NCBI RefSeq assembly: GCF_036373705.1
Contig: NC_089856.1
Coordinates: 5,001-69,000, forward strand
From: Amia ocellicauda
Taxonomy: Eukaryota > Chordata > Actinopteri > Amiiformes > Amiidae
Reading direction: 5' to 3'
DNA length: 64,000 nucleotides
Positions 1-18,134 of the stretch are shown here, in pieces. A program made the translations under genes and the position numbers. The first letter of the stretch is position 1. The number at the start of each line of letters is the position of its first letter. The notes under the pieces are model-generated. The model was not told the origin of the DNA. It did no database searches and saw only the letters and a list, made by a program, of their open reading frames with translations.

Positions 1-984
1 CCTTTAGCCACACTAGAACCCAACCTATCTACACAGAGACCCAAAACTGCTAGATTCTACAGTAATGTGGTAGTTTCGGATTCACAAGGCATTCACTCGT
101 CCCCTATAGAAGAAACTCCTATCCCTACAAGACTATCATATTCTAGTCCCTTGCTCCCACACAATATACCCAACCAAGACCAACCATAATATCAACCCCA
201 ATAGAAGAAAACCCCAGCCTCCCTAGACTACCATATACTAGCCCCTTACCTCCCCGAACCATAGCCAAACCTAGACAAACCACAATACCAGCCCAGATAC
301 ACCACTCTACAACAAATATGATTCCACTGGACAGCCCCATAATAGACACAAGTAATATTGACGCAGATCAGGATAATACTGATGGAACAGATTCACAATT
401 CGAAAACAATGATAGCCTCAATACAACACCACCTCATGAAAATACACGATATACGGTTCATAGACACCCAAACACAGAGAGAAAACTAACAGATTGGCAT
501 TTAACTACAACAAAACCGATAGTAATCATAGGGGATTCCAATTTGGATACCATAGGGCAACATAATAATTCACATATACAAATCGATAGCTACCCAGGAG
601 CCAAATTTATACATGCTGCCAGTATTCTAGAACGCACAGCCCTCAATAAGGAAGTACAACATCTAATCCTTTCATTTGGAATCAATAACAGGGACCAAAA
701 AGTAAAAGAAACCGCAATTAAGCAATTACAGAAAATGGTTCGAACAGCAGAAATAAAATTTCCTCGGGCACAGATACATATCCCTATGATCAACTTTTCA
801 ACTCATCTGGAGGAACATACACAAAACAACATTAGAGAAATAAACTCATACATAATGAACAATTACAATAATATCACGTCAATAGACCCAACAACATAAT
901 AGAACTCTCTCCGATGACATCCACTGGACTACCCAAACAGCACAAACAATCCTATACCACTGGATAAGGCATTTAAACTTATAA
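1..984 (+). pseudogene. PLE ORF1 (SGNH-hydrolase-like), copy 1, frameshifted
   Basis: Same protein as the 487-aa ORF1 of copy 2, lacking roughly the first 160 residues because the window starts inside it. Two single-base differences break the frame. One A is missing at about 173 (cccaacc where copy 2 has cccaaacc). One A is added at about 897 (cataatag where copy 2 has catatag), giving a premature stop at 897-899. The second change removes the C-terminal D-x-x-H block of the SGNH hydrolase. The GDSN block near 533 and the GINN block near 680 remain. Both lesions are one-base length changes, so a sequencing or assembly error is a real alternative to true decay. Confidence 0.85.
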
Positions 985-3247
985 ATCCTGTGAGCACAAA
1001 CATTTCAGTGAACAGGAACACTACAGAATTAATACAACAGGACACACCTAACATATTGAACTTATCCAGAATATTCAGATTAAATATGGAACAGAGGAAT
1101 TTCTTAAACAAAGGGCTTTCCTTTGTCCCGACCCCCGACCTTATTTTTCTACACAGCTTAAAGCAGACATACAAACATATCATCGTAGATTAAAATTAGC
1201 AGATTTCTTTAAGGATACACAACATTCACCTAGACCTTTTATTCCCAAATCAACTTGGGAACCAAAAAATAATCAAATACATCCACATATAAGACAACTA
1301 ATAACAACAGACCAAAATTACAGCTACAATATACAATACAATCAAGATAACCGCTTGGATAACCTAACACAGGGGGAAAGGAGAGCTTTACAACAATTAC
1401 AAAAAAATAAGAACATTATTATAAAACCAGCGGATAAAGGGGGCAGAATAGTAATTATGGACAAAACACAATATCTAACAGAAGCATATAGACAACTAGA
1501 CAATACAGAATATTATCAACAATTAACAGAACCCATTTACTTACAAAATCAAATATACATACGGGACATATTACAGACCCTTAGACATACACAATACATC
1601 AATAACAAACAGGAACAATATTTAAGAGGGACCAATGCACCCAGACCAAGACAATTTTATCTACTTCCAAAAATTCACAAACACCCTTCCACATGGACCA
1701 TTCCCTATCAAATCCCCACTGGTAGACCCATAGTATCAGATTGTAACAGCGAAACATACCACATTGCGGAATACATTGACCATTTCCTTAACCCCATCTC
1801 GCAAAAACACCCCAGTTATATAAAAGACACCTATGACTTCATCAACAAAATAAAATGCATAATAGTACCACATGATGCCTGGCTCTTCTCCATTGATGTC
1901 ACAAATCTCTACACTAACATAGATACAATAACAGGTTTAAACACAGTCTCAAAATGGTTCAAACTGTATCCAGACATCAACAGACCAGACAACCAAATCC
2001 TACAATTATTACAAATTAGCCTAGAAAGAAATGACTTTGAATTCAATAACAAACACTTTTTACAAATAAAGGGCACAGCTATGGGAAAAAGGTTTGCACC
2101 AGCATATGCTAATATCTATATGGCTGACTGGGAACAGACGATACTAGAACAATGTACACTGCTACCTACCCACTACTACAGATTTTTAGATGACATTTGG
2201 GGAATCTGGCCCCATCCTTTAACAGAATTCAACACTTTTATACAGAAACTCAATCACCATCACCCTCACATTAAAGTAACGAGCACCATTCACAAGACCG
2301 AAATTAATTTTCTGGACACTTGCACTTATAAAGGTCCACAATTTTTGAGCACCAACACTTTAGACACAAAAGTTTTTTTTAAAGAAACCGATACACATAC
2401 ACTACTACATAGACACAGTTTCCATCCAAAGCACACCTTTAAAGGTCTTATCAAATCACAGTTATTAAGATTTCACCGCATCTGCACAGAAGACACAGAA
2501 TTCAAGAAGGCCACCAATACACTATTTACAGCACTCTACAAGAGAGGGTACAGTAGAACCTTCCTCAGGAACATTAAAAAAACATTTTTGCAACCTAAAA
2601 TTAAAGACAATAAAACTATTATACCTCTAATCACTACTTATTCCCAATATACAGTTCAAATCAACAACTCCATTAAACTAAACTTTCAAAAACAACAATC
2701 CAGACACCAGATACTCCCAAATCACAAAATTATATCTGCATATCGGAAAAACAAAAGTCTACATAACCTACTAGTCCATAGTAAATGCCAAAACACCAAC
2801 CGAAAACCCAAGTCTAAACCAACCTACTTTCGTCAGCTGGCCTATATCACCAATACAAGCAATAAAACTACATTCAAGTTACAGTCAGGCATCACACATA
2901 AAACAAAAAATGCAATATACCTCATTCAATGTAAAACTTGCAATTTAAAATACATCGGAGAGACTAAAAACCAGATTAGTACTAGAATAGGTCAACACAT
3001 TTATAATATTAACAAACAAAAGGATAGACACACACATTTAGTGCAACACTTCATAGAACATCACACACAACAAATGACAGTTACAGGTCTAGAAACTAAT
3101 CATAATTGGAATACAATGCAACGACAAATAAGAGAGAGACACTGGATTCACAAACTAAATACAATTTACCCATTAGGACTCAATGAAAGATTTAAAACAA
3201 ACACAAAAAAAATCCCAGTAGTTGCCCTTAGACCTACCCACATTTAA
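978..3247 (+). pseudogene. PLE ORF2 (reverse transcriptase + GIY-YIG), copy 1, one frameshift
   Basis: Encodes the PLE reverse transcriptase with a C-terminal GIY-YIG nuclease. The T run near 1,145-1,150 is one base shorter than in copy 2, shifting the frame in the N-terminal region. From 1,355 to the stop at 3,245-3,247 the frame is open for 630 residues, identical to the copy 2 protein, with the FLDD catalytic pair and the GIY-YIG domain. The ORF1 end carries the same slippery heptamer (972-978) as copy 2. The single homopolymer-length change may be an assembly error, in which case this would be a second intact ORF2. Confidence 0.88.
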
Positions 3248-4515
3248 CTTCCTACACCCCAAAAAATTAAACTTCAATTTCAAGCAATTCATTCAGCTCA
3301 ATCACAACCCCCAATTTTACAAGTCAAAAAAATAAATAATAAGTCGAATCCCAAACTTACTCCTTAACCCTAAATACAAAACTACAACCTACCCTCTACC
3401 CCTTAATGTAGTCCCAAAATTTAATCTAAAATTTAAAAACTTAGCCCCAAAACCCAACCCTAACCTAACCTCAGACCCAACCCCAAAAACCCAACAAGGC
3501 CATCAAACTTAATCTCCAACCCAAATTTTAGACCCAATCCCTAAACTTTATCACCTAATTCAATCTCACAATTTAATTAGGCCCTCAAACTTAACCCCGA
3601 AATTTTACTCCTAAAACTCAACCCAAAAATACAATTAGACTAATTAAACTCAACACCTAACCTTAACTTAAGACTCAAACCCCAAACTTAACCCTTAAAC
3701 TCAACCCTAAAATACAATTACCCCACAATTTAACTAGGCACTCAAACCTACCCCTAAACCCAATCCCTAAACCTAACCCTTAAACTCAACCCCCAACCCC
3801 AACCCCAACCCTAACCCCAACCCTAACCCCAACCCTAAATTTAACCCCTAAATTTAACTTCAAATATGAATAACCCATAATTTAATTAGGCCTTCAAGCT
3901 TAAACCTACCCCTGAACCTAAACCCTAAACCTATCCCTTAAACTTAACCCTTAAACTCAACCCTAAAATAACCCCAACCCTAACCCTATCCCTTAAACTT
4001 AACCCTTAAACTCAACCCTAAAATAACCCCAACCCTAACCCTAAAATATAATTAGCCCACAATTTAACTAGGCACTCAAACCAACCTCTAAACCCAATCC
4101 CTAAACCTAACCATTATTCAAATGTAACCCTCAATCCTATCCCCAATAATCAATTTCACAACTTATCCTTAAATTTATTCCCCATAACTTATTCCCCCCC
4201 AAAACAAAACCCAGACTCCCTTAAAAACCTAGGTAATAGACTTCCAGACTCCATAATTAAATTTTAATCCCAATTCCAAACATTCCCCTTACTTTTAAGA
4301 CGTATTCTTGTACATACAAACTTCACATCATTCAATTACACCACATCTCATCCCACTGAATTACCTTAACAAAACAGACTATAGAACGAATACTTTCGGA
4401 TGCATCTTTTAAGGACACAACAATAGCCTCAACACCTGTGAGTGCCAGTGCACTTGAGGATGTCAGAGGAACCAAAGGTTTGATTCACCTGACAACCTCA
4501 ATAACCTATTTTTTT
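3248..4515 (+). other. PLE copy 1 3' UTR made of degenerate telomere-like repeats
   Basis: There is no coding potential. The stretch is C- and A-rich on this strand and dominated by variants of CCCTAA, CCCCAA, CCTTAAA and CTCAACCCTAAA. It ends in a non-telomeric block of about 140 bp (4,378-4,515) that finishes in a T run followed by AACCCTAA. The part 3,826-4,515 is repeated after the telomeric run as the left pseudo-LTR of copy 2. Confidence 0.8.
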
Positions 4516-4720
4516 AACCCTAACCCTAACCCTAACCCTAACCCTAACCCTAACCCTAACCCTAACCCTAACCCTAACCCTAACCCTCACCCTAACCCTA
4601 ACCCTAACCCTAACCCTCACCCTAACCCTAACCCTCACCCTCACCCTAACCCTCACCCTAACCCTCACCCTAACCCTAACCCCTAACCCTAACACTAACC
4701 CTAACCCTAACCCCAACCCT
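4516..4720 (+). repeat. (CCCTAA)n telomeric repeat between PLE copies 1 and 2
   Basis: About 200 bp of vertebrate telomeric repeat in C-strand orientation, with scattered CCCTCA variants in the second half and CCCCAA variants at the right edge. It follows the T run that ends copy 1 and precedes the pseudo-LTR of copy 2. Open frames here on both strands are repeat artefacts (alternating N-P or R-V). Confidence 0.95.
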
Positions 4721-5410
4721 AACCCCAACCCTAAATTTAACCCCTAAATTTAACCTCAAATATGAATAACCCATAATTTAATTAGGCCTTCAAGCTTAAA
4801 CCTACCCCTGAACCTAAACCCTAAACCTATCCCTTAAACTTAACCCTTAAACTCAACCCTAAAATAACCCCAACCCTAACCCTAGCCCTTAAACTCAACC
4901 CTAAAACTCAACCCTAAAATAACCCCAACCCTAACCCTAAAATATAATTAGCCCACAATTTAACTAGGCACTCAAACCAACCTCTAAACCCAATCCCTAA
5001 ACCTAACCATTATTCAAATGTAACCCTCAATCCTATCCCCAATAATCAATTTCACAACTTATCCTTAAATTAATTCCCCATAACTTATTCCCCCCCAAAA
5101 CAAAACCCAGACTCCCTTAAAAACCTAGGTAATAGACTTCCAGACTCCATAATTAAATTTTAATCCCAATTCCAAACATTCCCCTTACTTTTAAGACGTA
5201 TTCTTTTACATACAAACTTCACATCATTCAATTACACCACATCTCATCCCACTGAATTACCTTAACAAAACAGACTATAGAACGAATACTTTCGGATGCA
5301 TCCTTTAAGGACACAACAATAGCCTCAACACCTGTGAGTGCCAGTGCACTTGAGGATGTCAGAGGAACCAAAGGTTTGATTCACCTGACAACCTCAATAA
5401 CCTATTTTTT
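4721..5410 (+). repeat. Left pseudo-LTR of PLE copy 2
   Basis: Matches 3,826-4,515 at the 3' end of copy 1 and about 10,550-11,252 at the 3' end of copy 2, with small differences. It contains decayed telomere-like repeats and then the conserved end block (from about 5,275) that terminates in a T run. After the T run the sequence changes from AACCCTAA (true 3' end) to AAACCTAACCAGCC, the start of the element leader. Confidence 0.75.
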
Positions 5411-5580
5411 TAAACCTAACCAGCCAGTGCCACCAGGTTAGGCTACATGATAAGTCAACAAAATTCAAGAAATGTACAAATGATTGATACAGAAGAATTA
5501 TACAGTTTGTTTCCTTTTGCAGATTATATTAAGATCAGGAGGTCAATTACACCTTTAAAAAGGGAATAAAAAAGACCAAA

Positions 5581-5626
5581 GCACTATGGGTACTTCATTT
5601 ATTCAAAGGAGCCAATCCCATAGTGC
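5581..5626 (+). ncRNA. 10-bp perfect inverted repeat (RNA hairpin) in PLE leader
   Basis: GCACTATGGG (5,581-5,590) is perfectly complementary to CCCATAGTGC (5,617-5,626), separated by 26 nt. In copy 3 the left arm (11,623-11,632) reads GCACAATGGG and the right arm (11,659-11,668) is unchanged, leaving one mismatch. It lies about 77 nt upstream of the hammerhead-like motif. Its role is unknown. Confidence 0.6.
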
Positions 5627-5702
5627 ATTATGAAGACCTAAAACCGCAGGATAATAACTGCAAATCACCAATATACTCACCTTCTATTACGGGAATTATA
5701 TA

Positions 5703-5740
5703 GCACTTGAAAAAGCCTAACAATTGGCGAAACGTCGTGC
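5703..5740 (+). ncRNA. Hammerhead-ribozyme-like motif, PLE copy 2
   Basis: Read in order: GCAC (5,703-5,706, stem I), TTGAAAA (5,707-5,713, in the place of the CUGANGA box), an extra A and GCC (5,714-5,717), loop, GGC (5,726-5,728, stem II), GAAA (5,729-5,732), CGTC (5,733-5,736) and GTGC (5,737-5,740, closing stem I). Stem III is only A-C/G-U with no loop. That matches the minimal hammerheads reported in PLEs, which need dimer formation. Relative to the consensus core, C3 is U and G8 is A, which would keep a Watson-Crick 3-8 pair. The predicted cleavage site is after C5736. Activity is uncertain because of the two core changes and the extra A at the base of stem II. Confidence 0.6.
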
Positions 5741-6256
5741 AAATTCACCAAAAGATCAGGAGGAGAAGATCAACTTCAACCAACCCGGGTTGGAGAACAG
5801 TGGCTGGAGCGCTACGGCCACCAACACATTCATACTGTTATTTTCTGCAAACTCGGATACAGAACGGACAACACACCGGATACTAGGACTTGGAAGACTT
5901 TCAACGGAATTACAAGGGTAGGAATTGGACTTATTTACTCTTGCTTTTAAACCCAAAACCGGAAAAAAGTCATCCTACCTATGTACGATATATTGATGCA
6001 TTTTGTATGACTTTTCTTTTATCTGTATTACTCCTGTATATTTTTGTTTTAAAAGACTGTTTTATGCTCTGTTTGTAGGATATTTTAAGCACATCATACT
6101 GAGGTTTCTTAAAGAACAACAATAGCAGAGCCTTTGTTTTTACTAGCTGGAGCAATTTGTTAATGCTAACTACAACATTATTTTTTCCTTTTTTTTAAAA
6201 ACCATTAATAAATAAATTGTCATACTATATAGTATTGTATCCGATCTACAAACACT

Positions 6257-7720
6257 ATGGACAGAACACAAATGGTTAAACATTTCTACAAAATTATACA
6301 GATTAGTCATCACCTAACAATAACAAATAGTGCTATTTATCAAGACAAATTACCAATAGCCTTCCAAAGACAAACTAAAATACTAGGACAGTACATCAAA
6401 CCTGCTATCCCTACATTTGATACTTTAGAACTACTGACAGCTAACGCAATTAATTGGATGCACACAAATTTACAGATATTGCAAGTACATTATGAAAATG
6501 CATTAAACACATTACTAGAAGACATTCTACAATACAAAGGAACGAACTGGAAAGATAAACTGGACCAAGCTATGACATGGGCAAAACGAAATTATGGAAA
6601 TAGATTAAAGCCAGAAATTCTACATAAAACCAAGCACCGAATTGAAATCCTCCTAACTAATCAAACACAAATCGCATCAACAAACGGATTAATAGACACA
6701 CAGAATGTTAATTCACAACTAAGTAATCAGTTTGCTCCTTTAGCCACACTAGAACCCAACCTATCTACACAGAGACCCAAAACTGCTAGATTCTACAGTA
6801 ATGTGGTAGTTTCGGATTCACAAGGCATTCACTCGTCCCCTATAGAAGAAACTCCTATCCCTACAAGACTATCATATTCTAGTCCCTTGCTCCCACACAA
6901 TATACCCAAACCAAGACCAACCATAATATCAACCCCAATAGAAGAAAACCCCAGCCTCCCTAGACTACCATATACTAGCCCCTTACCTCCCCGAACCATA
7001 GCCAAACCTAGACAAACCACAATACCAGCCCAGATACACCACTCTACAACAAATATGATTCCACTGGACAGCCCCATAATAGACACAAGTAATATTGACG
7101 CAGATCAGGATAATACTGATGGAACAGATTCACAATTCGAAAACAATGATAGCCTCAATACAACACCACCTCATGAAAATACACGATATACGGTTCATAG
7201 ACACCCAAACACAGAGAGAAAACTAACAGATTGGCATTTAACTACAACAAAACCGATAGTAATCATAGGGGATTCCAATTTGGATACCATAGGGCAACAT
7301 AATAATTCACATATACAAATCGATAGCTACCCAGGAGCCAAATTTATACATGCTGCCAGTATTCTAGAACGCACAGCCCTCAATAAGGAAGTACAACATC
7401 TAATCCTTTCATTTGGAATCAATAACAGGGACCAAAAAGTAAAAGAAACCGCAATTAAGCAATTACAGAAAATGGTTCGAACAGCAGAAATAAAATTTCC
7501 TCGGGCACAGATACATATCCCTATGATCAACTTTTCAACTCATCTGGAGGAACATACACAAAACAACATTAGAGAAATAAACTCATACATAATGAACAAT
7601 TACAATAATATCACGTCAATAGACCCAACAACATATAGAACTCTCTCCGATGACATCCACTGGACTACCCAAACAGCACAAACAATCCTATACCACTGGA
7701 TAAGGCATTTAAACTTATAA
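6257..7720 (+). CDS. PLE ORF1: 487-aa SGNH/GDSL-hydrolase-like protein
   Basis: Starts at an ATG 516 nt after the hammerhead-like motif. Residues 1-150 are predicted largely helical with no recognised domain. Residues 150-320 are low-complexity, rich in Pro, Ser and Thr, with two similar segments around IEE-P-L-P-Y-S-P. Residues 330-487 form an SGNH hydrolase-like domain. The nucleophile block is GDSN with Ser340, followed by a Gly block (YPGA), GINN at 387-390, and D465-x-x-H468 in a DDIH context, so all four signature blocks are present. ORF1 esterase domains are known in CR1-type LINEs, and GDSL ORFs occur in rotifer telomeric PLE composites; the substrate here is unknown. The gene ends just past a -1 frameshift site that leads into ORF2. 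Copies 1 and 3 have lost the D-x-x-H block. Confidence 0.85.
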   Translation: MDRTQMVKHFYKIIQISHHLTITNSAIYQDKLPIAFQRQTKILGQYIKPAIPTFDTLELLTANAINWMHTNLQILQVHYENALNTLLEDILQYKGTNWKDKLDQAMTWAKRNYGNRLKPEILHKTKHRIEILLTNQTQIASTNGLIDTQNVNSQLSNQFAPLATLEPNLSTQRPKTARFYSNVVVSDSQGIHSSPIEETPIPTRLSYSSPLLPHNIPKPRPTIISTPIEENPSLPRLPYTSPLPPRTIAKPRQTTIPAQIHHSTTNMIPLDSPIIDTSNIDADQDNTDGTDSQFENNDSLNTTPPHENTRYTVHRHPNTERKLTDWHLTTTKPIVIIGDSNLDTIGQHNNSHIQIDSYPGAKFIHAASILERTALNKEVQHLILSFGINNRDQKVKETAIKQLQKMVRTAEIKFPRAQIHIPMINFSTHLEEHTQNNIREINSYIMNNYNNITSIDPTTYRTLSDDIHWTTQTAQTILYHWIRHLNL

Positions 7721-7752
7721 ATCCTGTGAGCACAAACATTTCAGTGAACAGG
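7708..7752 (+). promoter_or_regulatory. Putative -1 ribosomal frameshift signal joining ORF1 to ORF2
   Basis: In the ORF1 frame the sequence is T TTA AAC (7,708-7,714), the canonical X XXY YYZ heptamer, followed by TTA and the stop TAA at 7,718-7,720. A -1 slip places the ribosome in the frame of ORF2, which is open from 7,654 onward. After an 8-nt spacer, CCTGT (7,723-7,727) pairs with ACAGG (7,748-7,752), and CAC (7,731-7,733) with GTG (7,744-7,746), giving a stem-loop at the usual distance. The first AUG in the ORF2 frame is about 33 residues in, so frameshifting explains ORF2 expression better than its own start. The same heptamer is at 972-978 and 13,749-13,755. Confidence 0.75.
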
Positions 7753-9984
7753 AACACTACAGAATTAATACAACAGGACACACCTAACATATTGAACTTA
7801 TCCAGAATATTCAGATTAAATATGGAACAGAGGAATTTCTTAAACAAAGGGCTTTCCTTTGTCCCGACCCCCGACCTTATTTTTTCTACACAGCTTAAAG
7901 CAGACATACAAACATATCATCGTAGATTAAAATTAGCAGATTTCTTTAAGGATACACAACATTCACCTAGACCTTTTATTCCCAAATCAACTTGGGAACC
8001 AAAAAATAATCAAATACATCCACATATAAGACAACTAATAACAACAGACCAAAATTACAGCTACAATATACAATACAATCAAGATAACCGCTTGGATAAC
8101 CTAACACAGGGGGAAAGGAGAGCTTTACAACAATTACAAAAAAATAAGAACATTATTATAAAACCAGCGGATAAAGGGGGCAGAATAGTAATTATGGACA
8201 AAACACAATATCTAACAGAAGCATATAGACAACTAGACAATACAGAATATTATCAACAATTAACAGAACCCATTTACTTACAAAATCAAATATACATACG
8301 GGACATATTACAGACCCTTAGACATACACAATACATCAATAACAAACAGGAACAATATTTAAGAGGGACCAATGCACCCAGACCAAGACAATTTTATCTA
8401 CTTCCAAAAATTCACAAACACCCTTCCACATGGACCATTCCCTATCAAATCCCCACTGGTAGACCCATAGTATCAGATTGTAACAGCGAAACATACCACA
8501 TTGCGGAATACATTGACCATTTCCTTAACCCCATCTCGCAAAAACACCCCAGTTATATAAAAGACACCTATGACTTCATCAACAAAATAAAATGCATAAT
8601 AGTACCACATGATGCCTGGCTCTTCTCCATTGATGTCACAAATCTCTACACTAACATAGATACAATAACAGGTTTAAACACAGTCTCAAAATGGTTCAAA
8701 CTGTATCCAGACATCAACAGACCAGACAACCAAATCCTACAATTATTACAAATTAGCCTAGAAAGAAATGACTTTGAATTCAATAACAAACACTTTTTAC
8801 AAATAAAGGGCACAGCTATGGGAAAAAGGTTTGCACCAGCATATGCTAATATCTATATGGCTGACTGGGAACAGACGATACTAGAACAATGTACACTGCT
8901 ACCTACCCACTACTACAGATTTTTAGATGACATTTGGGGAATCTGGCCCCATCCTTTAACAGAATTCAACACTTTTATACAGAAACTCAATCACCATCAC
9001 CCTCACATTAAAGTAACGAGCACCATTCACAAGACCGAAATTAATTTTCTGGACACTTGCACTTATAAAGGTCCACAATTTTTGAGCACCAACACTTTAG
9101 ACACAAAAGTTTTTTTTAAAGAAACCGATACACATACACTACTACATAGACACAGTTTCCATCCAAAGCACACCTTTAAAGGTCTTATCAAATCACAGTT
9201 ATTAAGATTTCACCGCATCTGCACAGAAGACACAGAATTCAAGAAGGCCACCAATACACTATTTACAGCACTCTACAAGAGAGGGTACAGTAGAACCTTC
9301 CTCAGGAACATTAAAAAAACATTTTTGCAACCTAAAATTAAAGACAATAAAACTATTATACCTCTAATCACTACTTATTCCCAATATACAGTTCAAATCA
9401 ACAACTCCATTAAACTAAACTTTCAAAAACAACAATCCAGACACCAGATACTCCCAAATCACAAAATTATATCTGCATATCGGAAAAACAAAAGTCTACA
9501 TAACCTACTAGTCCATAGTAAATGCCAAAACACCAACCGAAAACCCAAGTCTAAACCAACCTACTTTCGTCAGCTGGCCTATATCACCAATACAAGCAAT
9601 AAAACTACATTCAAGTTACAGTCAGGCATCACACATAAAACAAAAAATGCAATATACCTCATTCAATGTAAAACTTGCAATTTAAAATACATCGGAGAGA
9701 CTAAAAACCAGATTAGTACTAGAATAGGTCAACACATTTATAATATTAACAAACAAAAGGATAGACACACACATTTAGTGCAACACTTCATAGAACATCA
9801 CACACAACAAATGACAGTTACAGGTCTAGAAACTAATCATAATTGGAATACAATGCAACGACAAATAAGAGAGAGACACTGGATTCACAAACTAAATACA
9901 ATTTACCCATTAGGACTCAATGAAAGATTTAAAACAAACACAAAAAAAATCCCAGTAGTTGCCCTTAGACCTACCCACATTTAA
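7714..9984 (+). CDS. PLE ORF2: reverse transcriptase with GIY-YIG endonuclease
   Basis: Probably made as a -1 fusion with ORF1. The open frame has GTG at 7,726 and no early ATG; residues below count from 7,726. N-terminal K-P-A-D-K-G-G (about 145-152) and LLPKIHK then GRPIVS (about 225-250) are PLE reverse transcriptase blocks. Motif A is SIDVTNLYTNI with Asp303. Motif B is the KGTAMGK block at about 360. Motif C is YYRFLDD with Asp401/Asp402. The C-terminal GIY-YIG nuclease has IYL at 643-645, Y-I-G at 655-657, then Arg666, His670 and Glu690. PLEs use this nuclease for target nicking. Telomere-bound PLE groups such as Athena and Coprina lack it, so its presence in a telomeric array is notable. 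No frame breaks are present. Confidence 0.93.
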   Translation, partial: LINPVSTNISVNRNTTELIQQDTPNILNLSRIFRLNMEQRNFLNKGLSFVPTPDLIFSTQLKADIQTYHRRLKLADFFKDTQHSPRPFIPKSTWEPKNNQIHPHIRQLITTDQNYSYNIQYNQDNRLDNLTQGERRALQQLQKNKNIIIKPADKGGRIVIMDKTQYLTEAYRQLDNTEYYQQLTEPIYLQNQIYIRDILQTLRHTQYINNKQEQYLRGTNAPRPRQFYLLPKIHKHPSTWTIPYQIPTGRPIVSDCNSETYHIAEYIDHFLNPISQKHPSYIKDTYDFINKIKCIIVPHDAWLFSIDVTNLYTNIDTITGLNTVSKWFKLYPDINRPDNQILQLLQISLERNDFEFNNKHFLQIKGTAMGKRFAPAYANIYMADWEQTILEQCTLLPTHYYRFLDDIWGIWPHPLTEFNTFIQKLNHHHPHIKVTSTIHKTEINFLDTCTYKGPQFLSTNTLDTKVFFKETDTHTLLHRHSFHPKHTFKGLIKSQLLRFHRICTEDTEFKKATNTLFTALYKRGYSRTFLRNIKKTFLQPKIKDNKTIIPLITTYSQYTVQINNSIKLNFQKQQSRHQILPNHKIISAYRKNKSLHNLLVHSKCQNTNRKPKSKPTYFRQLAYITNTSNKTTFKLQSGITHKTKNAIYLIQCKTCNLKYIGETKNQISTRIGQHIYNINKQKDRHTHLVQHFIEHHTQQMTVTGLETNHNWNTMQRQIRERHWIHKLNTIYPLGLNERFKTNTKKIPVVALRPTHI

Positions 9985-11252
9985 CTTCCTACACCCCAAA
10001 AAATTAAACTTCAATTTCAAGCAATTCATTCAGCTCAATCACAACCCCCAATTTTACAAGTCAAAAAAATAAATAATAAGTCGAATCCCAAACTTACTCC
10101 TTAACCCTAAATACAAAACTACAACCTACCCTCTACCCCTTAATGTAGTCCCAAAATTTAATCTAAAATTTAAAAACTTAGCCCCAAAACCCAACCCTAA
10201 CCTAACCTCAGACCCAACCCCAAAAACCCAACAAGGCCATCAAACTTAATCTCCAACCCAAATTTTAGACCCAATCCCTAAACTTTATCACCTAATTCAA
10301 TCTCACAATTTAATTAGGACCTCAAACTTAACCCCGAAATTTTACTCCTAAAACTCAACCCAAAAATACAATTAGACTAATTAAACTCAACACCTAACCT
10401 TAACTTAAGACTCAAACCCCAAACTTAACCCTTAAACTCAACCCTAAAATACAATTACCCCACAATTTAACTAGGCACTCAAACCTACCCCTAAACCCAA
10501 TCCCTAAACCTAACCCTTAAACTCAACCCCCAACCCTAACCCCAACCCTAACCCCAACCCTAACCCCAACCCTAAATTTAACCCCTAAATTTAACTTCAA
10601 ATATGAATAACCCATAATTTAATTAGGCCTTCAAGCTTAAACCTACCCCTGAACCTAAACCCTAAACCTATCCCTTAAACTTAACCCTTAAACTCAACCC
10701 TAAAATAACCCCAACCCTAACCCTATCCCTTAAACTTAACCCTTAAACTCAACCCTAAAATAACCCCAACCCTAACCCTAAAATATAATTAGCCCACAAT
10801 TTAACTAGGCACTCAAACCAACCTCTAAACCCAATCCCTAAACCTAACCATTATTCAAATGTAACCCTCAATCCTATCCCCAATAATCAATTTCACAACT
10901 TATCCTTAAATTTATTCCCCATAACTTATTCCCCCCCAAAACAAAACCCAGACTCCCTTAAAAACCTAGGTAATAGACTTCCAGACTCCATAATTAAATT
11001 TTAATCCCAATTCCAAACATTCCCCTTACTTTTAAGACGTATTCTTGTACATACAAACTTCACATCATTCAATTACACCACATCTCATCCCACTGAATTA
11101 CCTTAACAAAACAGACTATAGAACGAATACTTTCGGATGCATCTTTTAAGGACACAACAATAGCCTCAACACCTGTGAGTGCCAGTGCACTTGAGGATGT
11201 CAGAGGAACCAAAGGTTTGATTCACCTGACAACCTCAATAACCTATTTTTTT
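9985..11252 (+). other. PLE copy 2 3' UTR and right pseudo-LTR, telomere-like
   Basis: About 1.27 kb with no gene. Like 3,248-4,515 it consists mostly of decayed CCCTAA-type repeats. The terminal block 11,115-11,252 (CTATAGAACG through CCTATTTTTTTAA) is followed at once by pure telomeric repeats. The same terminal block recurs at 4,378-4,515, 5,275-5,410, 11,317-11,452, 17,015-17,150 and, more diverged, 17,984-18,120. Confidence 0.8.
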
Positions 11253-11318
11253 AACCCTAACCCTAACCCTAACCCTAACCCTAACCCTAACCCTAACCCT
11301 AACCCTAACCCTAACCCT
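11253..11318 (+). repeat. (CCCTAA)n telomeric repeat between PLE copies 2 and 3
   Basis: About 11 uninterrupted CCCTAA units following the T run that ends copy 2. The right end merges into CCCTATAGAACG, the start of the short pseudo-LTR of copy 3. It is purer than the 4,516-4,720 run. Confidence 0.95.
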
Positions 11319-11744
11319 ATAGAACGAATACTATCAGATGCATCTTTTAAGGACACAACAATAGCCTCAACACCTGTGAGTGCCAGTGCACTTGAGGATG
11401 TCAGAGGAACCAAAGGTTTGATTCACCTGACAACCTCAATAACCTATTTTTTTAAACCTAACCAGCCAGTGCCACCAGGTTAGGCTACATGATAAGTCAA
11501 CAAAATTCAAGAAATGTTCAAATGATTGATACAGAAGAATTATACAGTTTGTTTCCTTTTGCAGATTATATTAAGATCAGGAGGTCAATTACACCTTTAA
11601 AAAGGGAATAAGAAAGACCAAAGCACAATGGGTACTTCATTTATTCAAAGGAGCAAATCCCATAGTGCATTATGAAGACCTAAAACTGCAGGATAATAAC
11701 TGCAAATCACCAATATACTCACCTTCTATTACGGGAATTATATA

Positions 11745-11782
11745 GCACTTGAAAAAGCCTAGCAATTGGCGAAACGTCGTGC
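11745..11782 (+). ncRNA. Hammerhead-ribozyme-like motif, PLE copy 3
   Basis: Same arrangement as in copy 2: GCAC, TTGAAAA, GCC with a loop to GGC, GAAA, CGTC, GTGC. The only change is in the stem II loop (TAGCAATT instead of TAACAATT). Both core deviations, U at position 3 and A at position 8, are shared with copy 2, so they predate the split of the copies. Confidence 0.58.
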
Positions 11783-12297
11783 AAATTCACCAAAAGATCA
11801 GGAGAAGAAGATCAACTTCAACCAACCCGGGTTGGAGAACAGTGGCTGGAGCGCTACGGCCACCAACACATTCATACTGTTATTTTCTGCAAACTCGGAT
11901 ACAGAACGGACAACACACCGGATACCAGGACTTGGAAGACTTTCAATGGAATTACAAGGGTAGGAATTGGACTTATTTACTCTTGCTTTTAAACCCAAAA
12001 CCGGAAAAAAGTCATCCTACCTATGTACGATATATTGATGCATTTTGTATGACTTTTCTTTTATCTGTATTACTCCTGTATATTTTTGTTTTAAAAGACT
12101 GTTTTATGCTCTGTTTTTAGGATATTTTAAGCACATCATACTGAGGTTTCTTAAAGAACAACAATAGCAGAGCCTTTGTTTTTACTAGCTGGAGCAATTT
12201 GTTAATGCTAACTACAACATTATTTTTTCCTTTTTTTTATAACCATTAATACATAAATTGTCATACTATATAGTATTGTATCCTATCTACAAACACT

Positions 12298-13761
12298 ATG
12301 GACAGAACACAAATGGTTAAACATTTCTACAAAATTATACAGATTAGTCATCACCTAACAATAACAAATAGTGCTATTTATCAAGACAAATTACCAATAG
12401 CCTTCCAAAGACAAACTAAAATACTAGGACAGTACATCAAACCTGCTATCCCTACATTTGATACTTTAGAACTACTGACAGCTAACGCAATTAATTGGAT
12501 GCACACAAATTTACAGATATTGCAAGTACATTATGAAAATGCATTAAACACATTACTAGAAGACATTCTACAATACAAAGGAACGAACTGGAAAGATAAA
12601 CTGGACCAAGCTATGACATGGGCAAAACGAAATTATGGAAATAGATTAAAGCCAGAAATTCTACATAAAACCAAGCACCGAATTGAAATCCTCCTAACTA
12701 ATCAAACACAAATCGCATCAACAAATGGATTAATAGACACACAGAATGTTCATTCACAACTAAGTAATCAGTTTGCTCCTTTAGCCACACTAGAACCCAA
12801 CCTATCTACACAGAGACCCAAAACTGCTAGATTCTACAGTAATGTGGTAGTCTCGGATTCACAAGGCATTCACTCGTCCCCTATAGAAGAAACTCCTATC
12901 CCTACAAGACTATCATATTCTAGTCCCTTGCTCCCACACAATATACCCAAACCAAGACCAACCATAATATCAACCCCAATAGAAGAAAACCCCAGCCTCC
13001 CTAGACTACCATATACTAGCCCCTTACCTCCCCGAACCATAGCCAAACCTAGACAAACCACAATACCAGCCCAGATACACCACTCTACAACAAATATGAT
13101 TCCACTGGACAGCCTCATAATAGACACAAGTAATATTGACGCAGATCAGGATAATACTGATGGAACAGATTCACAATTCGAAAACAATGATAGCCTCAAT
13201 ACAACACCACCTCATGAAAATACACGATATACGGTTCATAGACACCCAAACACAGAGAGAAAACTAACAGATTGGCATTTAACTACAACAAAACCGATAG
13301 TAATCATAGGGGATTCCAATTTGGATACCATAGGGCAACATAATAATTCACATATACAAATCGATAGCTACCCAGGAGCCAAATTTATACATGCTGCCAG
13401 TATTCTAGAACGCACAGCCCTCAATAAGGAAGTACAACATCTAATCCTTTCATTTGGAATCAATAACAGGGACCAAAAAGTAAAAGAAACCGCAATTAAG
13501 CAATTACAGAAAATGGTTCGAACAGCAGAAATAAAATTTCCTCGGGCACAGATACATATCCCTATGATCAACTTTTCAACTCATCTGGAGGAACATACAC
13601 AAAACAACATTAGAGAAATAAACTCATAAATAATGAACAATTACAATAATATCACGTCAATAGACCCAACAACATATAGAACTCTCTCCGATGACATCCA
13701 CTGGACTACCCAAACAGCACAAACAATCCTATACCACTGGATAAGGCATTTAAACTTATAA
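12298..13761 (+). pseudogene. PLE ORF1 copy 3, premature stop
   Basis: Collinear with ORF1 of copy 2, with a few missense changes (for example N to H near residue 151 and P to L near 275). A C-to-A change at 13,629 turns a Tyr codon into TAA (13,627-13,629), cutting the protein to 443 residues. This removes the D-x-x-H block of the SGNH domain, and translation would stop before the frameshift heptamer at 13,749-13,755. The GDSN and GINN blocks are intact. Confidence 0.88.
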
Positions 13762-15962
13762 ATCCTGTGAGCACAAACATTTCAGTGAACAGGAACACTA
13801 CAGAATTAATACAACAGGACACACCTAACATATTGAACTTATCCAGAATATTCAGATTAAATATGGAACAGAGGAATCTCTTAAACAAAGGGCTTTCCTT
13901 TGTCCCGACCCCCGACCTTATTTTTTCTACACAGCTTAAAGCAGACATACAAAAAAATCATCGTAGATTAAAATTAGCAGATTTCTTTAAGGATACACAA
14001 CATTCACCTAGACCTTTTATTCCCAAATCAACTTGGGAACCAAAAAATAATCAAATACATCCACATATAAGACAACTAATAATAACAGACCAAAATTACA
14101 GCTACAATATACAATACAGTCAAGATAACCGCTTGGATAACCTAACACAGGGGGAAAGGAGAGCTTTACAACAATTACAAAAAAATAAGAACATTATTAT
14201 AAAACCAGTGGATAAAAGGGGCAGAATAGTAATTATGGACAAAACACAATATCTAACAGAAGCATATAGACAACTAGACAATACAGAACATTATCAACAA
14301 TTAACAGAACCCATTTATTTACAAAATCAAATATACATACGGGACATATTACAGACCCTTAGACATACACAATACATCAATAACAAACAGGAACAATATT
14401 TAAGAGGGACCAATGCACCCAGACCAAGACAATTTTATCTACTTCCAAAAATTCACAAACACCCTTCCACATGGACCATTCCCTATCAAATCCCCACTGG
14501 TAGACCCATAGTATCAGATTGTAACAGCGAAACATACCACATTGCGGAATACATTGACCATTTCCTTAACCCCATCTCGCAAAAACACCCCAGTTATATA
14601 AAAGACACCTATGACTTCATCAACAAAATAAAATGCATAATAGTACCACATGATGCCTGGCTCTTCTCCATTGATGTCACAAATCTCTACACTAACATAG
14701 ATACAATAACAGGTTTAAACACAGTCTCAAAATGGTTCAAACTTTATCCAGACATCAACAGACCAGACAACCAAATCCTACAATTATTACAAATTAGCCT
14801 AGAAAGAAATGACTTTGAATTCAATAACAAATACTTTTTACAAATAAAGGGCACAGCTATGGGAAAAAGGTTTGCACCAGCATATGCTAATATCTATATG
14901 GCTGACTGGGAACAGACGATACTAGAACAATGTACACTGCTACCTACCCACTACTACAGATTTTTAGATGACATTTGGGGAATCTGGCCCCATCCTTTAA
15001 CAGAATTCAACCCTTTTATACAGAAACTCAATCACCATCACCCTCACATTAAAGTAACGAGCACCATTCACAAGACCGAAATTAATTTTCTGGACACTTG
15101 CACTTATAAAGGTCCACAATTTTTGACACAGTTTCCATCCAAAGCACACCTTTTAAAGGTCTTATCAAATCACAGTTATTAAGATTTCACCGCATCTGCA
15201 CAGAAGACACAGAATTCAAGAAGGCCACCAATACACTATTTACAGCACTCTACAAGAGAGGGTACAGTAGAACCTTCCTCAGGAACATTAAAAAAAACAT
15301 TTTTGCAACCTAAAATTAAAGACAATAAAACTATTATACCTCTAATCACTACTTATTCCCAATATACAGTTCAAATCAACAACTCCATTAAACTAAACTT
15401 TCAAAAACAACAATCCAGACACCAGATACTCCCAAATCACAAAATAATATCTGCATATCGGAAAAACAAAAGTCTACATAACCTACTAGTCCATAGTAAA
15501 TGCCAAAACACCAACCGAAAACCCAAGTCTAAACCAACCTACTTCCGTCAGCTGGCCTATATCACCAATACAAGCAATAAAACTACATTCAAGTTACAGT
15601 CAGGCATCACACATAAAACAAAAAATGCAATATACCTCATTCAATATAAAACTTGCAATTTAAAATACATCGGAGAGACTAAAAACCAGATTAGTACTAG
15701 AATAGGTCAACACATTTATAATATTAACAAACAAAAGGATAGACACACACATTTAGTGCAACACTTCATAGAACATCACACACAACAAATGACAGTTACA
15801 GGTCTAGAAACTAATCATAATTGGAATACAATGCAACGACAAATAAGAGAGAGACACTGGATTCACAAACTAAATACAATTTACCCATTAGGACTCAATG
15901 AAAGATTTAAAACAAACACACAAAAAATCCCAGTAGTTGCCCTTAGACCTACCCACATTTAA
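13755..15962 (+). pseudogene. PLE ORF2 copy 3, internal deletion and frameshifts
   Basis: The reverse transcriptase part is open to 15,182 and keeps motif A and FLDD. At about 15,125 a 65-bp segment present in copy 2 (9,086-9,150) is missing, with GA at both edges. Two further one-base gains follow, at the T run near 15,153 and the A run near 15,297. The GIY-YIG part is open again from 15,303 to 15,962. One Cys of the nuclease region (codon tgt in copy 2) is Tyr here (tat, near 15,645). This copy cannot make a full-length product. Confidence 0.9.
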
Positions 15963-17150
15963 CTTCCTACACCCCAAAAAATTAAACTTCAATTTCAAGC
16001 AATTCATTCAGCTCAATCACAACCCCCAATTTTATAAGTCAAAAAATAAATAATAAGTCGAATCCCAAACTTACTCCTTAACCCTAAATACAAAACTACA
16101 ACCTACCCTCTACCCCTTAATGTAGTCCCAAAATTTAATCTAAAACTTAAAAACTTAGCCCCAAAACCCAACCCTAACCTAACCTCAGACCCAACCCCAA
16201 AAACCCAACAAGGCCATCAAACTTAATCTCTTACCCAAATTTTAGACCCAATCCCTAAACTTTATCACCTAATTCAATCTCACAATTTAATTAGGCCCTC
16301 AAATTTAACCCCGAAATTTAACTCCTAAAATTCAACCCAAAAATACAATTAGACTAATTAAACTCAACACCTAACCTTAACTTAAGACTCAAACCCCAAA
16401 CTTAACCCTTAAACTCAACCCTAAAATACAATTACCCCACAATTTAACTAGGCACTCAAACCTACCCCTAAACCTAACCCTTAAACTCAACCCCTAACCC
16501 CAACCCTAACCCCAACCCTAACCCTAACCCCAACCCCAACCCCAACCCTAAATTTAACCCCTAAATTTAACCTCAAATATGAATAACCCATAATTTAATT
16601 AGGCCTTCAAGCTTAAACCTACCCCTGAACCTAAACCCTAAACCTATCCCTTAAACTTAACCCTTAAACTCAACCCTAAAATATAATTAGCCCACAATTT
16701 AACTAGGCACTCAAACCAACCTCTAAACCCAATCCCCAAACCTAACCATTATTCAAATGTAACCCTCAATCCTATCCCCAATAATCAATTTCACAACTTA
16801 TCCTTAAATTTATTCCCCATAACTTATTCCCCCCCAAAACAAAACCCAGACTCCCTTAAAAACCTAGGTAATAGACTTCCAGACTCCATAATTAAATTTT
16901 AATCCCAATTCCAAACATTCCCCTTACTTTTAAGACGTATTCTTGTACATACAAACTTCACATCATTCAATTACACCACATCTCATCCCACTGAATTACC
17001 TTAACAAAACAGACTATAGAACGAATACTTTCAGATGCATCTTTTAAGGACACAACAATAGCCTCAACACCTGTGAGTGCCAGTGCACTTGAGGATGTCA
17101 GAGGAACCAAAGGTTTGATTCACCTGACAACCTCAATAACCTATTTTTTT
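15963..17150 (+). other. PLE copy 3 3' UTR, telomere-like
   Basis: About 1.19 kb without genes, the same decayed CCCTAA-type sequence as the other copies but slightly shorter. It ends in the terminal block 17,015-17,150 and the T run. Confidence 0.78.
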
Positions 17151-17200
17151 AACCCTAACCCTAACCCTTACCCTAACTCTAACCCTAACCCCTTACCCTA
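17151..17200 (+). repeat. Short degenerate telomeric repeat right of PLE copy 3
   Basis: About 50 bp of CCCTAA with several changed units (CCCTTA, CTCTAA, CCCCTTA). It is the shortest and most decayed of the three inter-element telomeric runs, in keeping with being the oldest. Confidence 0.8.
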
Positions 17201-18134
17201 GCCCAATAATACAATTAGACCAATTAAACTCAACACCTAACCTTAACTTAAGACTCAAACCCTAAACTTAACCCCTAAACTCAACCCTAAAATACAATTA
17301 GCCCACAATTTAACTAGGCACTCAACCCAACCCCTAAACCCAACCCCTAAACCCAACCCTTAAACTTAACCCCTATACTCAACCCTAAAATACAATTAGA
17401 CCCAATAACTTAACACCTAACCGTAAGACTCAACCCTTAAATTCAACCCCTAAATTTAACCCCTAAAGTTAAGATCAAATATGAATAACCCATAATTTAA
17501 TTAGGCCCTCAAACTTAAACCTACCCCCAAACTTAAACCCTAAACCTAACCCTTAAACTCAACCTTAAAACGCAATTAGACCCTAACATTTAACACCTAA
17601 CCTTAACTTAAGACTCAACCCTAAAATACAACTCCTAAATTCAACCCCACAACTCAACCCTAAACCTAAGCAGGTATTCAAATGCAACCCTCAATCCTAT
17701 CCCCAAAAATCAATTTCACTACTTATCCTTAAAATTAATCCCCATAACTTATTCCCTAGAAACCTACATATAACATCTCAACCTCATTCCCACCCCCCAA
17801 AACGAAACCCAACCTCCCTTAAAAACCTAGGCAATAGACTTCCAGACTCCATAACTAAATTTTACATTTTAATCCCAATTCTTAACATTCCCCCTACTTT
17901 CAAAACGTATTCTTGTACATACAAACTTCACATCATTCAATTACACGACATCTCATCCCACTGAATTACCTTAACAAAACAGACTGTAAAATGAATTCTT
18001 TGGATGCATCTTTTAAGGATACAATAATAGCCTCAACAGCTGTGAGTGCCAGTGCACTTGAGGAAGTCAGAGGAACCAAAGGTTTGATTCACCTGACATC
18101 CTCAAAAACCTATAATTTTAAACCTAACCCTAAC
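17201..18134 (+). mobile_element. PLE copy 4: old 5'-truncated 3' end
   Basis: This parallels the 3' UTR of copy 3 with many differences and contains no ORF1 or ORF2. It ends with a diverged terminal block (about 17,984-18,120) in which the T run reads TATAATTTTAAA. That is followed by AACCTAACCCTAAC and then directly by unit sequence at 18,135. It is best read as a 5'-truncated, older insertion at the base of the array. Confidence 0.75.

Follow-up and report, generated by a model that had tools for sequence, protein, structure and literature searches.

A Penelope-like element with a predicted GIY-YIG endonuclease lies in oriented arrays at many chromosome ends and is probably specialised for telomeres

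The stretch of DNA analysed here (the window) comprised 64,000 nucleotides, namely bases 5001–69000 of C7, a 49.35-Mb contig in a genome of 988 Mb and 385 contigs. At positions 1–18134, it contained copies of a Penelope-like element (PLE) of 5.8 kb, all on the + strand, with their 3′ ends inward and with telomeric spacers. Among the matches listed genome-wide, this element was seen at 20 ends of chromosome-scale contigs and formed arrays at many of them; at each of the 20, its sense strand was the telomeric C strand with the 3′ end inward. The element's 3′ end adjoined telomeric (CCCTAA)n or the following unit, in either case at a single fixed point. Judged by its sequence, the element is a PLE with two open reading frames (ORFs) and an endonuclease, and it has probably become specialised for telomeres, with the telomeric G strand as its primer and with later amplification by recombination.

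Distribution and orientation at chromosome ends

C7:1–5000 was all N, and the window started 5 kb inside the left tip of this chromosome-scale contig, in agreement with the first-pass annotation, which had placed a chromosome end to the left; the locus lay at the left end of the contig rather than at an internal chromosome site, and similar copies elsewhere adjoined telomeric repeats as well. Among the contigs with lengths examined, 23 were chromosome-scale (923 Mb together, 46 ends). Copy 2 (window 5410–11251) served as the reference for the copies in the window. The control for every element search was the pattern read backwards, which gave 0 matches each time, so the element matches were not due to chance. 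Genome distributions were taken from the matches listed (about 100 rows per pattern), to which the counts by place and strand below refer, and the terminal zone was set as within 130 kb of a contig end (0.65% of chromosome length).

The 3′ end plus a telomere-like flank was found at 175 sites (≤3 mismatches) and the 3′-end pattern without the flank at 190 (≤3 mismatches), while the exact head-to-tail junction, which carries AAACCTAACC as a built-in telomere match, had 108 genome sites. A telomere-like flank was present in the 71 listed sites with ≤1 mismatch out of the 175, 14 of them being C2 duplicates; a further 29 listed sites with two mismatches were head-to-tail joins. The 71 telomere-joined sites fell on unplaced contigs (14) and chromosome contigs (57), and 39 of the 57 lay in the terminal zone, covering 20 of the 46 ends (13 left and 7 right). 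Left ends were all + and right ends all −, i.e., 20/20 as predicted (two-sided sign test, 1.9e-6), so that the earlier claim that all sense strands coincide with the telomeric C strand, made from window copies that are all +, held at each of these ends; the orientation also fits the suggested priming on the telomeric G strand at all 20 ends. Of the 61 chromosome head-to-tail sites listed, 11 were interior; the 50 terminal ones were spread over 14 ends, and none of them had the opposite strand. By our own count, 66 of the 100 flank-free exact matches listed fell in the terminal zone, the remaining 34 being at four interior places. No site was listed at 26 of the 46 ends; the terminal 3 kb on the right of C2, C6, and C7, for example, contained no element, nor did the first 10 kb of C4, C11, C18, and C19.

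3′ ends, junctions, and telomeric spacers

A scan of fetched loci for a T run plus at least two A gave 24 3′ ends, split evenly between head-to-tail and telomeric (12 each). Flank patterns had guided the choice of five loci, four of them telomeric and one head-to-tail; the other 19 comprised 8 telomeric and 11 head-to-tail ends. Another 20 3′ ends were fetched via the telomere-flank pattern and were hence telomeric by selection. T7-AA was the stop point in 32/32 telomere-joined 3′ ends compared (12 + 20), 24 of which had been chosen by a pattern containing the telomeric flank and 8 of which had not. Outside this set, one C5 end had an eighth T, a C3 end had six T, and the T run of the old fragment at window 18113 was diverged. 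Telomere-joined 3′ ends continued as CCCTAACCC or ACCTAACCC, the latter keeping the AAACCTAACC of head-to-tail joins; AAACCTAACC is a putative pairing site between element RNA and the telomeric G strand.

The spacers contained the variant repeats CCCTGA, CCCTCA, CCCCAA, and CCCCTAA, and in 13 of the 15 tracts that could be used these lay towards the centromere (28 coded; sign-flip p = 0.00045; two related C2 tracts and short or invariant tracts were dropped). Because variant repeats concentrated on the centromere side, the spacers look like telomere bases. Spacer length had a median of 97 bp (range 17–326, n = 19), as counted by a tokeniser that stops at the first unknown unit, with C25_63 and C4-right omitted and with C22 included though its following element lay outside the sequence shown. 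Three clear 5′ joins (window J2 and loci L011 and L019), including CCCTA/TAGAACG and CCCTAAC/TTAGCC (the slash marks the join), matched the telomeric phase over some two or three bases; these shared bases fit telomerase priming and annealing alike and cannot separate the two. At the contig tips L013 (C3), L019 (C10), and L027 (C18), telomeric repeats extended over 1.4 to about 7 kb; the tip run was directly distal to a PLE on C10, and on C18 it was followed by sequence that was LINE-like by eye (LINE, long interspersed nuclear element).

ORFs and 3′ untranslated region of the element

ORF2 shared 48–54% identity with 17 aligned homologues and conserved the motifs DKG and FLDD, which we take to denote a PLE-type reverse transcriptase (RT). 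Its C-terminus matched GIY-YIG PF01541 (E = 2.2e-7, above the curated Pfam cut-off), and R666, E716, C648, C651, H687, and H691, presumably the GIY-YIG signature residues, were invariant across 18 sequences; both RT and endonuclease thus look intact in sequence. Named ORF2 protein relatives were all from fishes, and most listed relatives carried no name.

The C-terminal domain of ORF1 largely conserved, in a 21-sequence alignment, the motifs GDSN, GxN, and DxxHW, which we take to be SGNH signatures. A GDSL family match at E ≤ 0.01 was obtained for 7 of the 21 aligned ORF1 proteins, the window protein itself reaching E = 0.033, below the cut-off. Its AlphaFold2 model (mean predicted local distance difference test [pLDDT] 73.6, predicted template modelling score [pTM] 0.43, middle third disordered) matched solved SGNH hydrolases (best E = 1.1e-6) and the esterase domain of zebrafish ZfL2-1 ORF1 (E = 2.9e-4), and ORF1 is accordingly predicted to be SGNH-hydrolase-like. 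Sequence searches of PDB with ORF1, alone and as a profile, gave nothing credible, and no element relative was confirmed in the bacterial/archaeal and viral contig collections searched. One ORF1-like protein (P0161) was filed under fish-gut Cetobacterium and is probably host DNA in a bacterial assembly. Of 7 complete units examined, 6 had both ORFs open, and activity therefore appears recent.

The 3′ untranslated region (UTR) had 5% G on the sense strand and 18 CCCTAA versus 4.2 expected; the unit had three G-quadruplex motifs on the antisense strand, all in the 3′ UTR, and none on the sense strand. The window contained five identical instances of the 46-base hairpin upstream of the 3′ end, one in each of copies 1, 2, and 3 and in both young 3′ fragments. 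An Rfam search of window 3200–6300 gave no hammerhead and only weak, non-credible matches to other families; a possible hammerhead-like remnant near 5705–5750 was picked out by eye.

Array layout in the window

Inward from the tip, the window contained copies 1, 2, and 3 in that order, with J1 and then a truncated 3′ fragment between the first two and with J2 and then a short 3′ fragment between the second and the third; copy 3 was followed by spacer J3, an old 3′ fragment, a two-repeat stub, and then non-telomeric DNA (Table 1). Copy 1 was not seen whole, its 5′ part falling in the 5-kb N run. Since the 3′ UTR also resembles telomeric sequence, the left edge of the fragment after J1 was ambiguous. 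Telomeric tracts never abutted the 5′ end of a full copy: J1 and J2 each preceded a 5′-truncated 3′ fragment that ran head-to-tail into the following full copy through the junction TTTTTTTAAACCTAACC/AGCC, and J3 preceded the old 3′ fragment alone, with no full unit after it. Such a fragment-plus-full-unit layout is the pseudo-long terminal repeat (pseudo-LTR) arrangement of PLEs in the text available from PMC11167929 and PMC3846280. The tandem or partial-tandem layout with pseudo-LTRs is as expected of an endonuclease-bearing PLE.

Table 1. Features of the PLE array at the left end of the window
Feature	Position in window	Strand	Remarks
PLE copy 1	1..4514	+	99.9% identity to copy 2; small frame-disrupting indels
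Telomeric spacer J1	4515..4734	+	About 35 repeats, 10 variants, mostly on proximal side
5′-truncated 3′ fragment (upstream pseudo-LTR)	4735..5409	+	Directly joined to copy 2
Head-to-tail junction TTTTTTTAAACCTAACC/AGCC	5400..5425	+	About 1.5 built-in C-rich telomere repeats
PLE copy 2, complete 5842-bp unit	5410..11251	+	Reference
ORF1, 487 aa	6257..7720	+	N-terminal helical region; C-terminal SGNH (GDSL-like) hydrolase-type domain (predicted)
ORF2, 752 aa from GTG / 720 aa from ATG	7726..9984	+	PLE RT plus C-terminal GIY-YIG (predicted)
3′ UTR	9985..11251	+	Base composition, CCCTAA and G-quadruplex counts (see text)
Hairpin directly upstream of 3′ end	11192..11237	+	z −2.4 for 131-nt region
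Telomeric spacer J2	11252..about 11316–11319	+	Ten pure repeats, 0 variants
5′-truncated 3′ fragment, about 135 bp	11317..11451	+	Directly joined to copy 3
PLE copy 3	11452..17149	+	96–99% identity by segment; internal deletion near 15125; both ORFs shortened
Telomeric spacer J3	17150..17204	+	Degenerate
Old 3′ fragment plus two-repeat telomeric stub	17202..18134	+	17202–18113 at 80% identity; inner boundary of the array

The first-pass annotation had described full copies in one orientation, numbered 1 to 4, separated by (CCCTAA)n runs and ageing inward. The single orientation, the telomeric tracts, the near-identity of the most distal pair, and the broken, more diverged state of copy 3 were all recovered, but its copy 4 was only a 3′ fragment and the tracts did not abut the 5′ ends of full copies. 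The age gradient applied to the order of element divergence but not to the tracts, the distal J1 (10/35 variants) being more degenerate than J2 (0/10).

Just inside the array boundary, window 18400–20000 was C-/T-rich and resembled, by eye, a LINE reverse-transcriptase fragment. Window 21000–64000 was a subtelomere made of a tandem repeat of about 9.8 kb (about four copies, 95–99% identity), along with which most TTAGGG hexamers recurred.

Divergence and exchange between ends

Copies on different chromosomes had their nearest neighbour at 0–0.5% in most segments compared. The innermost copies were more diverged in the 5′ region at C7-left (1.0%) and C1-left (0.7%), which supports outward growth; at C6-left, neighbouring copies were identical in the segments compared, with no gradient. 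The first 1.3 kb of two copies was identical at C10-left, and two C2-left copies were identical in one segment and 0.2–2.6% apart in others. Copy 2 was mosaic, sharing private alleles with a C2 copy over its first kilobase and, further on, with copy 1, C8-right, and C10; the variant pattern of J1 resembled, by eye, two C2 spacers, and the ends therefore appear to have exchanged blocks. Unit lengths were constant within arrays and differed between arrays (5814 bp ×10 on C188; 5869 bp ×3 and then 5828 bp ×3 on C9). Since there are identical neighbours, mosaics, a shared spacer pattern, and array-specific unit lengths, block exchange and tandem duplication seem to have shaped these ends besides fresh insertion. 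At C2-left, element positions 1601–2400 of L012 differed by 2.6% from most copies and by 0.17% from a C1-right copy, which may again point to exchange or else to an old subtype.

The near-identity of copies 1 and 2 was considered as proof of successive insertion and was rejected, given the mosaic copy 2 and the J1 pattern on C2; for the same two reasons, the window cannot be read as a simple record of one end. The first-pass reading, with its hypothetical alternation of telomerase and PLE additions, was supported in part, by orientation, spacer polarity, and innermost divergence, but direct head-to-tail joins outnumbered telomere-separated ones.

Clusters away from contig tips

Six clusters lay off contig tips (C1, C2, C5, C6, C8, and C9), four of them with an N gap at or near the distal side: (i) the C8 cluster (100–117 kb) started exactly where an N gap ended (100,000); (ii) the C5 cluster (51.625–51.685 Mb) started exactly where a short N gap ended, and it was the one cluster near a right end that bore the left-end strand; (iii) the minus-strand C6 cluster (50.20–50.22 Mb) was followed by N within about 1.4 kb; and (iv) the C1 cluster near 71 kb had N up to base 70,000, the gap and the element being separated by at most 0.8 kb of other DNA. 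The C1 and C8 clusters lay within 130 kb and were counted as terminal. Distal-side gaps are as expected of array-ending contigs scaffolded inward, and they weakened these four inner arrays as a refutation of the end location.

PLE units at C5:51626563–51678133 were arranged in a higher-order pattern of about 19.1 kb, and the C5 spacer L102 was long and rich in CCCTGA, i.e., TCAGGG. At C9:40.545 Mb (L052 1040–1250), telomeric repeats broken by a repeated ACAATTGCACACA..GATTA spacer lay beside an old PLE array; this stretch is possibly a former chromosome end. Deep in C1 (C1:3649392–3704328), four-repeat CCCTAA runs were scattered over at least about 55 kb, with no obvious PLE array.

Proposed mechanism and alternative explanations

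In the mechanism proposed here, array transcripts would carry AAACCUAACC just past the 3′ hairpin and a U7 run, and AAACCUAACC would pair with the telomeric G strand, whose 3′ end, free or made by the GIY-YIG nuclease, would prime reverse transcription; G-strand priming would make each insert's 3′ end point inward. The complementary DNA (cDNA) would stop at variable places within the 3′ UTR of the upstream unit, short matches would allow telomerase or annealing to link it to telomeric repeats, the next insert would land distally, and unequal exchange within and between chromosome ends would multiply and reshuffle blocks including telomeric spacers. Contig position, strand (20/20), T7-AA ends, distal gaps, and spacer polarity (13/15) back this reading, and the apparently intact RT and GIY-YIG residues, the mosaic copies, the shared spacer patterns, and the open ORFs point the same way.

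Several observations weigh against it. The element is known here from sequence alone. Head-to-tail joins (108 exact) were commoner than telomere-joined 3′ ends (71 of 175, 14 being C2 duplicates). The 3′ UTR holds perfect telomere matches longer than AAACCTAACC, and therefore pairing alone cannot fix the start point. The spacers were short compared with the telomeric runs of 1.4–7 kb at three contig tips and fit poorly with addition to ordinary telomere tips unless tracts shrink later. Fourteen C2 sites at 52.8–60.7 Mb were interior and on both strands; the three copies read were 98–99.7% alike including flanks, and the innermost copy at C8-left had the same telomeric stub and flank, so that the C2 sites look like segmental duplicates of one insertion, and independent internal insertion was rejected for these three of the 14. 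An older C9 array at 40.5 Mb (96–98%), with no gap seen nearby, looks truly interstitial.

Since the RT ORF retains an endonuclease, internal nicking of telomeric DNA appears as possible as true end addition. A SART/TRAS-like process, in which the GIY-YIG enzyme nicks repeats near the telomere base and most of the telomere stays distal, is accordingly a plausible, though less favoured, candidate: the GIY-YIG signature residues are intact, the spacers are short and variant-rich as at a telomere base, and telomeric stubs flank both sides of the C2 fragment L050 (read at both edges), but a PLE nuclease studied in vitro prefers AT-rich DNA according to the accessible part of PMC11167929, and a target-site duplication would be unrecognisable inside repeats. 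Strict terminal addition, with the element extending a free end, telomerase capping it, and the window being a faithful time record of one end, would account for the orientation, for the more diverged innermost copies compared at C7-left and C1-left, and for the short matches at the 5′ joins as products of telomerase priming; it seems rather unlikely in view of the mosaic copy 2, the spacer pattern recurring on C2, a distal spacer more degenerate than the next inward, the C6-left neighbours without a gradient, and the retained endonuclease.

An ancient PLE caught in subtelomeric DNA and spread as a satellite only by recombination is improbable. The regular unit lengths per array, the higher-order spacing on C5, the near-identity between chromosomes, and the junction that C2 interior copies share with C8-left would suit it, but about 25 distinct telomere junctions among 30 tracts (own grouping), with differing spacers and 5′ truncation points, and the open state of both ORFs in nearly all complete units examined argue against it. 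That collapsed or misjoined repeats were stacked at contig tips by the assembly is very improbable: contigs do break in or beside arrays, and N gaps adjoin several, but strand was consistent at all 20 ends, and spacer patterns and inner flanks were distinct. Beyond the telomere-specialised, G-strand-primed element favoured above, the 10-nt telomere-matching site in the RNA of this PLE, which belongs to the sister lineage of telomerase, might be an independently evolved telomerase-like trick that extends telomeric DNA and regularly builds the chromosome ends of this vertebrate beside telomerase and recombination, a suggestion that we regard as doubtful.

Comparison with known elements and implications

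In the text available from PMC3846280 and PMC6431247, transposition of Athena, Coprina, and Terminon PLEs is largely confined to chromosome ends, and their truncated 5′ ends are telomere-capped; Terminons form head-to-tail arrays, encode a short telomere-complementary 3′ stretch and GDSL esterase ORFs, and may carry separate GIY-YIG-like accessory ORFs. Like these elements of rotifers, fungi, and others, the present one had its 3′ ends inward (20/20 ends) and carried telomeric repeats at its truncated 5′ ends, and, like Terminons, it encodes a telomere-complementary stretch, AAACCTAACC. It appears to work like the telomere-attached PLEs of rotifers, with arrays, capped 5′ ends, and a hydrolase ORF, as far as these are described in the part of PMC6431247 available. 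In contrast to their RT ORF without endonuclease, its GIY-YIG is fused to the RT, and because of this it falls outside the endonuclease-deficient telomeric PLEs, and the analogy with Athena and Coprina drawn in the first-pass annotation is a loose one.

The Poseidon PLE of Anolis (PAc) has RT and GIY-YIG in one ORF and tandem arrays with pseudo-LTRs, both shared with the present element, and its reverse transcription starts inside the array transcript (PMC11167929, available text); PAc has AT-rich targets and a working hammerhead, whereas the present element has telomeric-repeat joins and a second ORF. In lake sturgeon, GIY-YIG PLE fragments bounded by telomere-like repeats occur on contigs with integrated herpesvirus (PMC12031113); the portion of that paper available describes them as degraded and randomly inserting and contains neither an analysis of orientation or chromosome ends nor a claim of telomere specialisation, and they are, to that extent, the nearest published hint. 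Retroelements in telomeric repeats also include the SART/TRAS LINEs of silkworm, where telomere-like RNA of SART1 may anneal to the target, and Tx1-1_ACar, cited as a vertebrate telomeric LINE in anole (PMC7265360 and PMC10088271, available text). SART/TRAS and Tx1-1_ACar are non-LTR LINEs, unlike the present element, a PLE with a predicted GIY-YIG endonuclease. HeT-A, TART, and TAHRE of Drosophila also occupy chromosome ends as oriented head-to-tail arrays, but there they replace telomerase, whereas TTAGGG-type repeats persist around the present element.

No report of a telomere-specialised vertebrate PLE was found among the open-licence PMC papers listed. In the text available, the PLEs described as telomere-bound have an RT ORF without endonuclease, and the missing enzyme is given as the reason why they attach to telomeres. 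An endonuclease-keeping PLE at many ends of a probable vertebrate genome would loosen the link between telomere attachment and endonuclease loss. It would also provide a system where the same chromosome ends may be acted on both by telomerase and by one of its relatives, and its oriented telomere stubs would show how chromosome ends exchange DNA.

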